A stretch of DNA of 64,000 nt, taken from NCBI GenBank assembly GCA_019637395.1, contig JAHBVR010000008.1, positions 248,001 to 312,000 of the forward strand, written 5' to 3'. The notes under the pieces were generated by a model. That model was not told the DNA's origin. It saw nothing but the letters and a program-made list of their open reading frames with translations, and did no database searches. Origin of the DNA: Vulcanimicrobiota bacterium. Its GTDB lineage: Bacteria; Vulcanimicrobiota; Xenobia; Xenobiales; JADMJV01. Position numbers and translations under genes: made by a program. Within the stretch, counting starts at the first letter, position 1. Each line of letters starts with the position of its first letter. Of the stretch, positions 6,909 through 33,919 are shown in pieces.

Positions 6909-7806
6909 CCCGGTTAGCAGGGGGGGGCCAGGCGGCGACGGCAGTCCCCCCCTGAACTCATGGTTGCGTGCGCGCCTGAGTTCTTTGCGTCTGGTTTCCC
7001 CGCGCCAGGGCCCGCAGACCAACCTGGCCGGCGCTCATCGCGGCCGGCGCCGGGGCCGCTCCATGGAGTTTGCCGAACATCGCGATTATTCCCCAGGGGA
7101 CGACCTGCGCCACCTGGATTGGGCCGCCTTCGCCCGCAGCGAACGTTTGGTGATCAAGGAATTTGAGTCGGAGTTGGAACGCACCGTGCTGGTGGCGGTC
7201 GACCTGTCGGCTTCCATGTCCGAGAGCAAACGCCGCCTGGCGCTGCAGTGCGCGGCTGCTTTCAGTTGGATCGCCCTGAACGGGCAGGACCGCCTGGCTC
7301 TGGCCGCCCTGGGGTCAGGCCCACGCTATCATCCGCCAGTGCGCGGGCGGGGACAATGGGGGCGTTTGATGGAGTGGCTGAGTTCCGCTCCCGCCGGGGG
7401 CCGGGCTCAATTGACCGATTCCTTGAAAGGGCTGGCCCAGCGTTTGCCGCGCAGCAGTCTGGTGCTGGTGCTCTCCGACTGGCTGGAAGAAAATGCCGGG
7501 GAGGCCCTGACCTTTGCCCACTATCGCAAGCATCAGGTGGCGGCGCTGCAGATTTTGGACCTGGAAGACAGCCAGCCGCCCTGGTTGGGCCCGCTGCGCC
7601 TGGAAGACATCGAGACGGCCGAATTTCGCCAACTGAGTCTGGAGGCTCAGGCCCTTCAGTATTACCAACAAGCTCTGGAAGAACATAGCGGGCAGCTTCG
7701 CGAGCAATGCCGGCGCCTGGGTTTCCATTTTCATTCCTGCGCCAGCCTGGATCGTCCGGAGGATGTGCTGCTGCGCCAGCTGGTCGAACGCGGGTGGCTG
7801 GTGTGA
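6901..7806 (+). CDS. DUF58 domain protein
   Basis: A 301-residue DUF58 protein. The diagnostic core is present at about residues 56-90: the EFAEHRDYSPGDDLRHLDW stretch followed by an Arg-rich segment and KEFESE. A VWA-like fold follows, with DLSAS at residues 101-105, which matches a metal-ion adhesion (MIDAS) DxSxS motif. DUF58 proteins occur in MoxR operons and are thought to link the ATPase to VWA proteins at the membrane. The start is uncertain: I use the TTG at 6901, overlapping the permease stop, because upstream coupling is the rule in this operon. No strong ribosome binding site is visible, and an internal TTG near 6964 is possible. Confidence 0.88.
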   Translation: MLDPVSRGGPGGDGSPPLNSWLRARLSSLRLVSPRQGPQTNLAGAHRGRRRGRSMEFAEHRDYSPGDDLRHLDWAAFARSERLVIKEFESELERTVLVAVDLSASMSESKRRLALQCAAAFSWIALNGQDRLALAALGSGPRYHPPVRGRGQWGRLMEWLSSAPAGGRAQLTDSLKGLAQRLPRSSLVLVLSDWLEENAGEALTFAHYRKHQVAALQILDLEDSQPPWLGPLRLEDIETAEFRQLSLEAQALQYYQQALEEHSGQLREQCRRLGFHFHSCASLDRPEDVLLRQLVERGWLV

Positions 7807-9512
7807 AGGATTGGGGCTGGAACGCTCCGTCGCAGGTGGTCTGGCTGTGGGTACCGCTGGTCCTGCTGCTGCTCTACCTTTTCCGCCCCCGCCATCGTCC
7901 TCAGTCGGTGGCGGCGGCTTTTTTGTGGCGCCGCGTGGCGGACAAGTTGGGCGGGCAGAGTCTCTGGCTGCGCCTGCAAAGTCAGCGCCTGCTCTGGCTG
8001 CAACTGCTTTTTTGCACGTTGGTCATCCTGGCCCTTTTGAGGCCCTATCAAGTGCGTCCCGGCCTGGTGGCCCGTCAGGTGGTGCTGATCGTGGACCTGT
8101 CCGCCTCCATGGGAGCGGCCGACCGCCTCCCCGCCAGCCTGGCCGAGGCCCGCCAGATCGTGCGCCAGGCTCCCAACGGCTGCGAGTTCGCTCTGGCCAC
8201 TCTGGATACCAATCTGCAGATGCTGCAGCCCTTCAGCGAAGATCGAGTCTCCCTTGATGCCCAGTTGGCCGGACTGCAGGTGCAGGCGGTCACCGGCCAG
8301 GACAAGCGGGTCGCCCCCCTGGTCCTGTCGCTTCTGAAGAACAATCCGCAGGCTCAGATTCACTGGTTCTCCGACCACCCGCTGCCGGGAGTCAACTGCA
8401 TCGCCCATCTGGCCGACCAGGGACGGGTCAATTACGCCATCGATTCTTTCCAGAGCAGTCCCGAGCAGCTTTTCCTGGCCCTGCGTAACTATGACGGCCA
8501 GGCGGCCCAGTTGCGCGTGCGCATCCGTGGCGCCGAAGATTTTCTGGTGGAGCGCGTCTGTTCGTTGCGCGGGCGGGGACGCCACTCATTGCAGATTCCC
8601 CTGGTCGGAAGCCAGGGTCCCTATCGAGCCGAAATTCTTACCAAGGATGATCTGTCTTTGGACAATCAGGCCTTCTGCCTGGAGGCCCATCGAGTGCCTA
8701 TGCGCTTGATCAGCCACGGCCAGGTTCCTTTGTTTCTAGAACAGGCCGCCCAGGCCGCCACGGGTTTGACGCTGTTGCGCGGTGAAATCGCCACTTCCGG
8801 TATTCACCTCTGGAGCACTCTGCCCGAATCCAGGGAACTGCCGCCGGGACGGCACATCGCGGCGGCGCCTCCGGCCAGTTGGGTGCGGGCCAAAGTCGAG
8901 GATGAGGGGCCGATCTTGCTTCCCGGCCTGCTGCAGCGCGACTGGCGCTTTCGCGTTTCCAGTCAGCGCTGGGGCGCGCGCCAAAGCTTGCAGGTGGGGC
9001 TGAACGGAATCGAGCCGGTGCTGGTGGATTCGACCGGGGAGGCCCTGCTGGTGCAGCGGCAACAGGCCCTGGTCTGGTTGTTTCCATTGGAAAATTCCGA
9101 CCTGCCGCTCTCTCCCGACCTGCCCGTCATTCTTTCGAGCTGGCTGAAGACGCACACCGACCCCTCCCAGGCCCAGAGCGTAGGCCTGCTCTGCGGCACC
9201 CGCGCCCGCCTCGACGGCCCCGCACCGCTGCAATTGAAAGGACCACGTGGGACCATCCGGTTGGAAGGCCTGGAATGGCAGCCAACCTGGCCCGGTCTTT
9301 ACCGTTACGAGGGAGGTCAGTTAGCCGTCAACTTTTACTCTCCCGAGGAATCTGATCTCGACCGCCCCAAGCTGGCGGCTCAGCCGGCGCCGCCCGTTTC
9401 CGAGGAGTTGCTGACACGCCCGATGAGCCAGGAATACACTCTCCCTCTCATCGCCCTGGGACTGCTGGTGCTGCTCTGGGAGTATCGTTGCTGGTGGGGG
9501 GACAAACGCTGA
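7803..9512 (+). CDS. BatA-like membrane protein with VWA domain
   Basis: A 569-residue protein with the BatA N-terminal layout: a membrane segment at about residues 13-27, the charged FRPRHR stretch, an amphipathic region, and a second membrane segment at about 62-80. A VWA domain follows with VDLSASM (MIDAS DLSAS at 98-102). The rest is a long extracytoplasmic region ending in a C-terminal membrane helix near residue 550. BatA-type proteins are thought to present VWA domains at the inner membrane for protein complex assembly under MoxR control. The GTG start at 7803 overlaps the DUF58 stop by 4 bp, and the stop shares one base with the ATG of the next gene. Confidence 0.86.
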   Translation: MKDWGWNAPSQVVWLWVPLVLLLLYLFRPRHRPQSVAAAFLWRRVADKLGGQSLWLRLQSQRLLWLQLLFCTLVILALLRPYQVRPGLVARQVVLIVDLSASMGAADRLPASLAEARQIVRQAPNGCEFALATLDTNLQMLQPFSEDRVSLDAQLAGLQVQAVTGQDKRVAPLVLSLLKNNPQAQIHWFSDHPLPGVNCIAHLADQGRVNYAIDSFQSSPEQLFLALRNYDGQAAQLRVRIRGAEDFLVERVCSLRGRGRHSLQIPLVGSQGPYRAEILTKDDLSLDNQAFCLEAHRVPMRLISHGQVPLFLEQAAQAATGLTLLRGEIATSGIHLWSTLPESRELPPGRHIAAAPPASWVRAKVEDEGPILLPGLLQRDWRFRVSSQRWGARQSLQVGLNGIEPVLVDSTGEALLVQRQQALVWLFPLENSDLPLSPDLPVILSSWLKTHTDPSQAQSVGLLCGTRARLDGPAPLQLKGPRGTIRLEGLEWQPTWPGLYRYEGGQLAVNFYSPEESDLDRPKLAAQPAPPVSEELLTRPMSQEYTLPLIALGLLVLLWEYRCWWGDKR

Positions 9513-31897: not shown

Positions 31898-31971
31898 ATC
31901 CGGAGGTTTTATCGGCACTTTGCTTCATGACTCTTAAAATGGTCTGAAATCACTCGATGGAGGATAATTCG

Positions 31972-32742
31972 ATGGGTCTGAGCATCCCCGGTTCTGGTCT
32001 GGTCAAGAAAGCGATTCGCGCGGGCGGTAACGTGGCCAAGAAGGTCACCGGCGAAGCCTCCAAAAGGGCGGGCGAGGTCAAAGACGCGGCCGTGGGCGGA
32101 GTCAAGGAGGCTGTGCACCTGTCCAAGGAAGTGGTGGAAGAAGGCGCCCATCAGGGCGCCAACTTCGGCCGCGGCGTGGTGGAATGGGGCAAGGGCACGG
32201 CCGGCACCGTCACCAGCCTGGTGACCCATCCGATTCAGACAGCCAAAGCTGTCAAGAGCCTGGCCGAAAACCCCCTGCTCAACCCCTCGCAGGGGATCCT
32301 CAATCCCGTTAATCTGGCCAAGGATGCCATCCACGGCGACAACCCGCTGGACCGCTACAAGAAGGGCGCCGAGCAACTCAAGGGCATCGGCACCACCCTG
32401 GCCAACGACTACAAAGAACAATATGAAAAGAACGGTGCCGCCGGCGTGGCCGGCTATGTTGCTCCCGACCTGGCCCTGGCCGTCCTGAGCGGCGGCAGCA
32501 GTTCCGCCGCCAAAGGCGGCGCCACCGCCGCAGCCAAAGCCGCCGCCAAGGAAGTAGCCGAAGAAGCAGTGGAACAGGGCGCCACCGCCGGTATCAAGGA
32601 TACGGCCAGGCATCTGGCCAAGGAGTCGGTCAAGTCGCAAGTCCCGGACGCCAAGACCATTTCCGACGCCGAACGCCGTAACCAGAACGAGCATTCGCAG
32701 AACTACCTGGAAGCCCTGATTGGAAATTTCTCCCTCTTTTAA
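31972..32742 (+). CDS. Ala/Lys-rich helical protein, function unknown
   Basis: A 256-residue protein. The ATG at 31972 was chosen because GGAGG (in the codons after an upstream in-frame ATG at 31957) lies 8 nt before it. It begins MGLSIPGSGLVKKAIRAGG and is very rich in Ala, Gly, Lys and Glu, with long amphipathic helices (KKVTGEASKRAGEVKDAAVGGVKEAV) that recall LEA or apolipoprotein-like proteins. A middle part (THPIQTAKAVKSLAENP, DRYKKGAEQLKG) resembles the pre-toxin-type linker regions of secreted polymorphic toxins, but there is no toxin domain at the end. No signal peptide. It lies just upstream of the predicted non-coding RNA. Function not assigned. Confidence 0.7.
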   Translation: MGLSIPGSGLVKKAIRAGGNVAKKVTGEASKRAGEVKDAAVGGVKEAVHLSKEVVEEGAHQGANFGRGVVEWGKGTAGTVTSLVTHPIQTAKAVKSLAENPLLNPSQGILNPVNLAKDAIHGDNPLDRYKKGAEQLKGIGTTLANDYKEQYEKNGAAGVAGYVAPDLALAVLSGGSSSAAKGGATAAAKAAAKEVAEEAVEQGATAGIKDTARHLAKESVKSQVPDAKTISDAERRNQNEHSQNYLEALIGNFSLF

Positions 32743-32795
32743 ACGAACAAAATTCGAATCTGTTGCAAAACCCCTGTGAACAATCAGGTACGTGG

Positions 32796-32825
32796 TTGAC
32801 AGCCACCATGCTGATAGGCTACATT
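32796..32825 (+). promoter_or_regulatory. sigma-70-type promoter of the non-coding RNA
   Basis: A perfect -35 box TTGACA (32796-32801), an 18-bp spacer and a -10 box TACATT (32820-32825). Expected transcription start is about 32831-32833. No reading frame of useful length starts downstream on this strand. Confidence 0.6.
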
Positions 32826-32830
32826 GCAGA

Positions 32831-33141
32831 CCTGGACGCGAAAGCGGACAGCGCTCCGGCCGGAAGCAGGCCGGCGCTCTGGGGAGCGGAGAACCAGGGG
32901 TAGCTTGCAGACCACAGTAAGCCGGAGCGGCTCCACTCCGTAAAAAGGGAGGTCGGCTCGACACAGCGCCGGTGTTCGTGAGGACACAGCGTCGCAAGAC
33001 GTAATTCCGGAGTTCGCTGGGGAGGTCGAGGGACCTGAGTTGGGTAGGCACTCAGGAGGTTCTGCTTGACCAGAAAAGCAGGGGGACGGCATACCTCAGT
33101 CCGTCACGATGCAAGCCACTGGAGCGATCTGGTGGCTTTCG
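32831..33141 (+). ncRNA. probable structured non-coding RNA of unknown family, about 310 nt
   Basis: The stretch has no plausible protein on the plus strand but is full of perfect short hairpins. These are: AGCG+CCGGCC / GGCCGG+CGCT (32850-32878, with a 2-nt bulge); CGGAG / CTCCG (32923-32940); CCTGAGT / ACTCAGG (33034-33056); CTGCTT / AAGCAG (33062-33081); GACGG / CCGTC (33085-33105); and AAGCCAC / GTGGCTT (33113-33138). A consensus-like promoter precedes it and the last hairpin could end it. I looked for the signature sequences of RNase P RNA, tmRNA, SRP RNA, group I and II introns, and cobalamin and c-di-GMP riboswitches and found none. The neighbours give no clue, and the minus-strand frame across it is an antisense artefact. 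Confidence 0.55.
33113..33139 (+). terminator. possible terminator hairpin of the non-coding RNA
   Basis: A perfect 7-bp stem AAGCCAC / GTGGCTT with a 12-nt loop, followed by TCGTCGTT. The T tract is short, so termination here is plausible but not certain. It ends 7 bp before the stop of the convergent MBL gene. Confidence 0.4.
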
Positions 33142-33145
33142 TCGT

Positions 33146-33919
33146 TCAGGGCTCGTGGCAGGCTCGCAGCACCACCTCGGGGCGTTCTCGGCGCAGCCGC
33201 TTCAGCTTATCGAGCGTTTCCTGATAGGCTCGCGCATCCTCCACCACCCAGCGAGTGGGTACCGGCAGCACGACTCCATCCAGTTGTTCAGGCACGTAGT
33301 AAGCATCGCCTACGGCGAAGAGGGGCCCGGCCAGGGTTTCCATCCATAGCCCCAGGTGGCCCCGGGTGTGGCCGGGCAGTTGGAAAATGCGCGCACTGCC
33401 GTCTCCGAACCAATCCCAGCCAGGTCCGAGAAATTCCAGGCCCGGCCAGAGCGGAGCCGGCAGATCTTCAAAAAACCGTATTTCTCCTCTCGGAAAAAGG
33501 GCTTTCAGGTGGGCGGTGTGGAGCGATTGCCAGGGGCCGAGCCGCTGTACCCGGCGCCACTCCCGGCCCGAAACCCAGGTGGGCAAGGGCGGCAGATCGG
33601 GCACCGAGCCGATATGATCGGGATGAAAGTGAGATATCCCGAGGCCCGCCAGTTGCTCGACCCGGACCTGCCGGGTGAGCTGCTCTTCCGGGCGCAGGCG
33701 CGGCGGGATGAGCCAGCGCAGCAAGCGGGCCGGAAACCATCGGGTCGCTCTCCAGAAAGCCGGACCATAACCGGTATCCCAAAGGAATTGCCCATAATCG
33801 GGATGTTCGAGCAAGAACACCCGGACCGGCAGCGCCAGGGGTCGCCAACCTGTCCCCCGGCGCACCAAGCGGCCGGGTGGGCAGGCCTGTCCGACAACCA
33901 GTTCGTGAATTCGCAGCAT
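33146..33919 (-). CDS. MBL-fold metallo-hydrolase
   Basis: A 257-residue metallo-beta-lactamase-fold hydrolase. The metal motif HFHPDH is at residues 97-102, followed by PGHTRGHLG (third metal histidine), a conserved AVGDAYY Asp, and a final ACHEP histidine. This set is typical of the lactonase/glyoxalase-II-like branch that hydrolyses esters, thioesters or lactones; the substrate is not predictable. No signal peptide, so cytoplasmic. I chose the ATG at 33919 (MLRIHELVV); an in-frame GTG three codons upstream (33928) is possible. It is divergent from the small membrane gene and converges with the non-coding RNA. Confidence 0.9.
   Translation of the reverse strand: MLRIHELVVGQACPPGRLVRRGTGWRPLALPVRVFLLEHPDYGQFLWDTGYGPAFWRATRWFPARLLRWLIPPRLRPEEQLTRQVRVEQLAGLGISHFHPDHIGSVPDLPPLPTWVSGREWRRVQRLGPWQSLHTAHLKALFPRGEIRFFEDLPAPLWPGLEFLGPGWDWFGDGSARIFQLPGHTRGHLGLWMETLAGPLFAVGDAYYVPEQLDGVVLPVPTRWVVEDARAYQETLDKLKRLRRERPEVVLRACHEP

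Follow-up and report, generated by a model that had tools for sequence, protein, structure and literature searches.

A family of predicted non-coding RNAs built as chains of a multi-pseudoknot module, the smallest natural member measuring about 310 nt

What is encoded at positions 32796-33141 of the window, that is, of the whole 64,000-nucleotide stretch of contig JAHBVR010000008.1 (assembly GCA_019637395.1, Vulcanimicrobiota bacterium) analyzed here? The initial annotation, made without any database search, had seen there an orphan, unnamed structured RNA, with a promoter of its own, a string of simple hairpins, and no obvious link to its neighbours. The underlying observation is real: we confirm at this place a non-coding RNA gene of about 310 nt with a near-consensus promoter, for which no transcript data are available. 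The features of the element outside its first module are listed below.

32796-32825, + strand: promoter, with TTGACA at 32796-32801, an 18-nt spacer and TACATT at 32820-32825
Near 32832, + strand: expected transcription start
32832-33141, + strand: predicted RNA, about 310 nt long and the minimal member of its family (based on homology, model score and frame test; both ends inferred)
33034-33056, + strand: hairpin CCUGAGU (33034-33040) / ACUCAGG (33050-33056), read from the sequence and kept in all four copies of the window locus
33058-33106, + strand: degenerate second module, matched by the covariance model R1 (described below) at 15.4 bits (E 0.08) and conserved among the window-locus copies
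33058-33060 with 33069-33071, + strand: contact in the degenerate module between GGU and the loop ACC of hairpin 33062-33067/33076-33081
33085-33089/33101-33105, + strand: last hairpin of the degenerate module
33113-33138, + strand: terminator-like hairpin of 11 pairs with a GCGA loop, counterpart of the family terminators

Both claimed promoter boxes are thus present, and a consensus scan found no other promoter-like (sigma-70-like) site in 32600-33300, where 0.1 is expected from shuffled sequences. The claim that no useful reading frame exists also held: no stop-free frame on the + strand exceeds 48 aa, against a mean of 83 after shuffling. The claim that the last hairpin could terminate transcription held only in part: hairpin 33113-33138 matches the terminators of the family, yet its U-tract is weak (TTTCGTCGTT) and a mechanical terminator scan of the window element called none, this hairpin included. 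As for folding energy, the 310-nt strand reaches −136.4 kcal/mol (z −2.58, with 1 of 100 shuffles equally good), but the opposite strand folds comparably well relative to its own shuffles (z −2.84); folding energy is therefore no proof of an RNA, and we dropped it as evidence. It is the comparative evidence, namely homologues and the covariance-model score, that decides, and on this ground we accept the window element as an RNA.

A DNA search with 381 bp around the element matched 7 of 58 genomes, its own included, and the own genome holds further copies on other contigs. We then used R1, a covariance model covering the 57 positions of the module core; the window core scores 62.7 bits against it, with the reservation that R1 was built from rows that include the window copy. 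R1 matches 9 of 149 Eremiobacterota genomes, of which we retained seven, with 3-25 module matches each; the weak matches in the other two (G067 and G027) look protein-coding and were taken as chance. A search with relaxed filters, run on the 18 genomes of the class, again singled out these seven (3-26 module matches each); the single matches gained in G012 and G009 by this lax search (E 0.025 and 0.039) are probably due to chance, the one in G009 (L141) remaining unresolved. Five of the seven RNA-bearing genomes, including our own, belong to one genus, one to the same family and one to the same order. In the five genomes of the genus, well-scoring loci number about 5-8 per genome, a figure obtained by counting contigs with strong matches across the strict and lax R1 searches. 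Exact matches to the core in named records (SZAS-1 / EREM-KAN-1, MAG_50, bin.189_sub and CPR1, of which only bin.189_sub bears the name of the phylum) assign the hosts to Candidatus Eremiobacterota; Xenobia as their class is an inference. Exact matches found outside the phylum (Lentzea, Rhodobacteraceae, Oscillospiraceae and one IMG/VR contig) lack the flanking hairpins and score 10-15 bits, versus at least 37 for most modules in the loci of the phylum; we consider them chance matches. This narrow distribution, over two families of one order, limits the generality of what follows. We also noted a weakly matching subtype (22-33 bits) at G003_C98, G004_C82 and G000_C1 (L103, L106 and L095, respectively), the first two of which show two modules about 0.95-1.2 kb apart.

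Most relatives of the window element are larger, with 1-6 tandem modules over 0.5-1.4 kb. The core of the module, CAGRGGUAGCnnGCAGACY, is near-invariant and recurs in the longer members, usually about 110-290 nt apart. The twelve members with both ends defined by a strict motif measure about 290-1170 nt and carry 1-5 modules; six modules are found in G004_C106, over about 1.42 kb. The window copy represents the smallest build, with one full module (32875-32951), one degenerate module and the terminator-like hairpin; a peripheral hairpin block is missing in two of its three counterparts (G002 and G003). At G005_C155 (L040), the only R1 module has a promoter-like site about 1.2 kb before it, and a terminator-like hairpin follows. 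There, 7597-9200 covers about 1.6 kb from promoter-like site to terminator-like hairpin, and may be the longest member.

In the 180-nt zone searched around and upstream of the first module, 33 of 44 elements have a near-consensus promoter, against an expectation of 0.11 and none on the opposite strand. The family terminator hairpin, defined by a strict motif, is present in 16 of the 44 elements and in 0 of 44 control stretches, and further members show hairpins related to it. Reading frames across the family are no longer than those of shuffled sequences.

In several elements, L046 and L035 among them, a direct repeat with an 11-bp period, GTnAAC-N5-GTnAAC, stands before the promoter. This motif has 23 matches in the own genome, near varied genes, versus 8 for a reversed control; its reading as a Pho-type box was considered and dropped. 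Another side observation is that, in four genomes, the locus with the longest chain lies about 4-4.6 kb from a class A RNase P RNA gene:

L094, 3198-3568: class A RNase P RNA gene
L044, 4034-4408: class A RNase P RNA gene
L101, 2960-3335: class A RNase P RNA gene
L039, 13086-13459: class A RNase P RNA gene

In L094, a single frame at 6533-7840 matches both FlhA (FHIPEP) and FlhB (Bac_export_2), which is an apparent fusion or the result of a mis-called start.

Where the initial annotation described simple hairpins, and was in this respect incomplete, the key structure is a string of pseudoknots. We propose that each module folds into consecutive H-type pseudoknots around the one near-invariant core; covariation supports the core hairpins, the R-Y contact and pseudoknot 3. 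In the full module of the window, the fold reads as follows.

32875-32888, + strand: pseudoknot 1, CGCU (32875-32878) / AGCG (32885-32888), read from the sequence, with weak family support
32879-32897, + strand: hairpin before the core, CUGG (32879-32882) / CCAG (32894-32897), supported by covariation
32895-32913, + strand: near-invariant core CAGGGGTAGCTTGCAGACC, supported by the core alignment, covariation and R1
32898 with 32913, + strand: R-Y contact of pseudoknot 2, supported by covariation
32903-32922, + strand: hairpin of pseudoknot 2, 32903-32908/32917-32922, with loop ACC at 32911-32913, supported by covariation
32923-32951, + strand: third hairpin, 32923-32927/32936-32940, supported by covariation
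32931-32934 with 32948-32951, + strand: pseudoknot 3, loop CUCC with GGAG, supported by covariation and the swap test

Three alignments were used to examine this fold. The first (A1) holds the cores and keeps 56 of 83 regex matches, the other 27, without the flanking hairpins of the family, having been excluded by eye. Over the 55 distinct cores, 94.3% of the named-pair cells are paired, with 130 two-sided changes versus 36.5 after shuffling and a covariation score of 0.450 versus 0.153; sliding the pairing drops the paired fraction to 28-44%. The R-Y contact joins the hairpin loop to the strand that precedes the hairpin; 40 rows have G-C there and 15 have A-U, and the pair is lost in none. 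We interpret it as H-type pseudoknot 2. Covariation speaks for the R-Y pair, yet the precise pairing is unsettled, since a register shifted by one column is also compatible with the rows, though it shows no covariation. The second alignment (A2) takes the internal modules, 28 of the 56 rows of A1, whose preceding hairpins are 94.3% paired (87 two-sided changes versus 24.5 shuffled). The third (A3) consists of 22 hand-picked first modules, the rest having insertions or another module type; pseudoknot 3 and its hairpin are 90.1% paired in it, with 34 two-sided changes versus 9.2 and such changes in five of the six pairs of the pseudoknot-3 region. A3 includes four copies of the window locus; at least three of them carry the pseudoknot-3 pairing one column off, which lowers the pseudoknot-3 count.

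Swap tests between modules gave a further measure for the two outer pseudoknots. The core was found in 126 modules (for 5 further R1 matches none was found), 118 of which have GGT in it, and 82 of these 118 are non-redundant. For pseudoknot 3, the partner strand of which directly precedes a conserved GGCY, the anchored test could use 65 of these 82, the other 17 having no anchor: the longest complementary run averages 4.82 with the module's own partner versus 3.28 with permuted ones, the maximum over 5000 permutations being 3.71. For pseudoknot 1, between the strand before the first hairpin and the loop of that hairpin, the corresponding values over all 82 modules are 3.51 versus 3.28 (sd 0.09), with a permutation maximum of 3.61, so that its support is weak. 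A cruder swap test on duplex energies could not tell a module's own partner from a foreign one in any of pseudoknots 1-3. Overall, the core is the most conserved part of the module, and the stem arms vary by compensation. This is the expectation for a docking surface, with the reservation that the rows were chosen by core similarity and are thus biased.

Several structured copies per genome, two of them with near-identical cores in G005, could also be explained by a non-autonomous mobile or selfish repeat that is only incidentally structured. This explanation was already disfavoured and we hold it to be very unlikely: for all 55 modules compared, the best match in another genome is at the syntenic locus, nearly always at the corresponding position, which is not the behaviour of a mobile repeat or MITE, and the promoters, terminators and compensatory changes have been retained. 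This synteny test covered four loci, whose members were grouped by their shared neighbours, two of them (G003_C113 and G003_C62) by a single shared neighbour each. Tandem duplication of a module is also seen, modules 3 and 4 of G003_C117 being 97.7% identical over 86 nt. No family match was found in phage records or in plasmid records.

That the element acts in cis, as a leader or attenuator for a gene next to it, is equally very unlikely. In its favour, the element ends in a terminator-like hairpin; against it, the MBL gene downstream of the window element is on the opposite strand and runs towards it, and no downstream gene is common to the loci. The absence of a link to the neighbours, as first claimed, thus held. 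Across the family, neighbouring genes vary between loci, and many first downstream frames face the element (with the crude gene caller used), so the RNAs most likely act in trans. Just upstream of the window RNA, at 31957-32742, lies the gene of a 261-aa Lys/Ala-rich protein without Pfam match, the DNA of which is conserved along with the RNA in G001 and G002. Given the syntenic modules (55 of 55), the differing neighbours and the frames no longer than those of shuffled sequences, we consider these elements standalone, vertically inherited and probably trans-acting RNAs rather than riboswitches, mobile repeats or known families; transcript data are lacking.

Do they belong to a known RNA class? 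With Rfam 15 at the gathering cut-off, there is no match in the whole window, and at E ≤ 10 the region 32600-33300 gives only a chance miRNA match (E 0.14). In 16 family loci, Rfam 15 finds only RNase P, outside the elements, and E-value searches give only sub-threshold matches. The claim of an unnamed non-coding RNA is therefore supported, homologues with compensatory base changes having been found and no Rfam family matching; that of an orphan failed, the window RNA being the minimal member of a multi-copy family. This family falls outside all Rfam 15 families, although in general kind it can be placed with the large, ornate non-coding RNAs of bacteria. Our searches of the mainly open-access literature (mostly without subscription papers and bioRxiv) turned up no description of this RNA, nor of a build in which one multi-pseudoknot unit forms chains of variable length, with several paralogues per genome.

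Among the closest known systems are ROOL, GOLLD and OLE, which are large, intricate, pseudoknotted bacterial non-coding RNAs of poorly understood function (PMC12286853). Rfam holds all three families, and none of them matched in the window or the 16 loci. The present family is likewise large, intricate and pseudoknotted, but differs in that one unit is strung together 1-6 times, with several diverged paralogues per genome and no phage link found. An RNA-only assembly remains possible, if rather unlikely: the RNAs would form homo- or hetero-oligomers through the loops of their modules, like the ROOL/GOLLD cages, with no need for a protein, although this assembly step is inferred. Large size, pseudoknots and the lack of a protein neighbour common to the loci, as for ROOL (PMC12286853), speak for it; the lack of a phage or tRNA-island link in the window, as well as the repeat-chain build and several paralogues per genome, unlike ROOL/GOLLD, speak against it.

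Another rival is a sponge, in which tandem modules would soak up an RNA-binding protein, regulatory or toxic, in the way of CsrB with CsrA or ToxI with ToxN. The tandem pseudoknot units in one transcript recall ToxI/AntiQ of type III toxin-antitoxin systems (PMC5772629), and the elements are standalone units with their own terminators. However, ToxI units are near-identical, 36 nt long and followed by toxN, whereas the modules described here are position-specific and far longer (about 110-290 nt), with several pseudoknots each; no neighbour gene is common to the loci and no toxin neighbour was seen at them. CsrB/RsmZ are standalone, terminator-ended sponge RNAs with repeated binding units; the present units are pseudoknots rather than simple GGA hairpins, and CsrA was not found in four of the seven hosts (absent from searches of G000, G001, G002 and G006, present in G003, G004 and G005). 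We thus regard the sponge as unlikely.

Bacterial Y RNAs, which pair with Ro60, offer a further comparison. One host has a Ro60 gene near a copy of our RNA, but Ro60/TROVE was found in only one of the seven RNA-bearing genomes (G005) and not in the other six, and the architecture is unlike that of Y RNAs. The gene in question, a TROVE/vWA_Ro60 gene at L040 10969-12522 (G005 C155), lies about 2.2 kb downstream of the RNA module and is the only strong TROVE match among 19 related genomes. We give this proximity little weight because two frames intervene and no Ro60 was found in the other hosts. ToxN was found in 0 of 19 genomes, the 14 control genomes being silent too, and Hfq, present in all seven RNA hosts, also occurs in 7 of the 12 genomes that lack the RNA. 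None of these candidate partners (CsrA, Ro60, ToxN or Hfq) explains the distribution of the RNA, with the caveat of the silent ToxN control.

What the data support is the existence of the family, its covarying module structure, the promoters of its members and the absence of a tie to neighbouring genes. A multivalent scaffold is, in our opinion, the most likely mechanism, with the sponge and the RNA-only cage as its nearest rivals; it is only inferred, with no partner or expression data. Under the scaffold model, each RNA gene, which has a promoter and usually also a terminator to itself, would be expressed from one of several unlinked intergenic places per genome, and the RNAs would act in trans as architectural RNAs. 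The repeated, pre-folded modules would be equivalent docking sites, so that one RNA may assemble a particle from several copies of one partner, this partner being either a protein or further modules from the same family of RNAs; differing module numbers would then give particles of differing size. We hold this whole reading, a trans-acting modular RNA family with scaffold function, with as much doubt as confidence, its expression, partner and any phenotype being hypothetical and the scaffold step inferred. A bolder version, against which we lean slightly, would see here a new class of bacterial RNA akin to repeat proteins, a variable chain of multi-pseudoknot modules that has been duplicated and diversified into 5-8 paralogues per genome and forms a lineage-specific particle of tunable size, made of RNA alone or of RNA and protein.

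Bacterial non-coding RNAs of kilobase size are few, and the known ones (OLE, ROOL and GOLLD) are poorly understood in function. In the present family, one unit is repeated 1-6 times, and nature provides a minimal version of about 310 nt in the window copy; structure, assembly and partner can therefore be tested on a small RNA, then on the longer natural chains. A poorly studied phylum thus gains a lineage-specific RNA system that is not described by Rfam.
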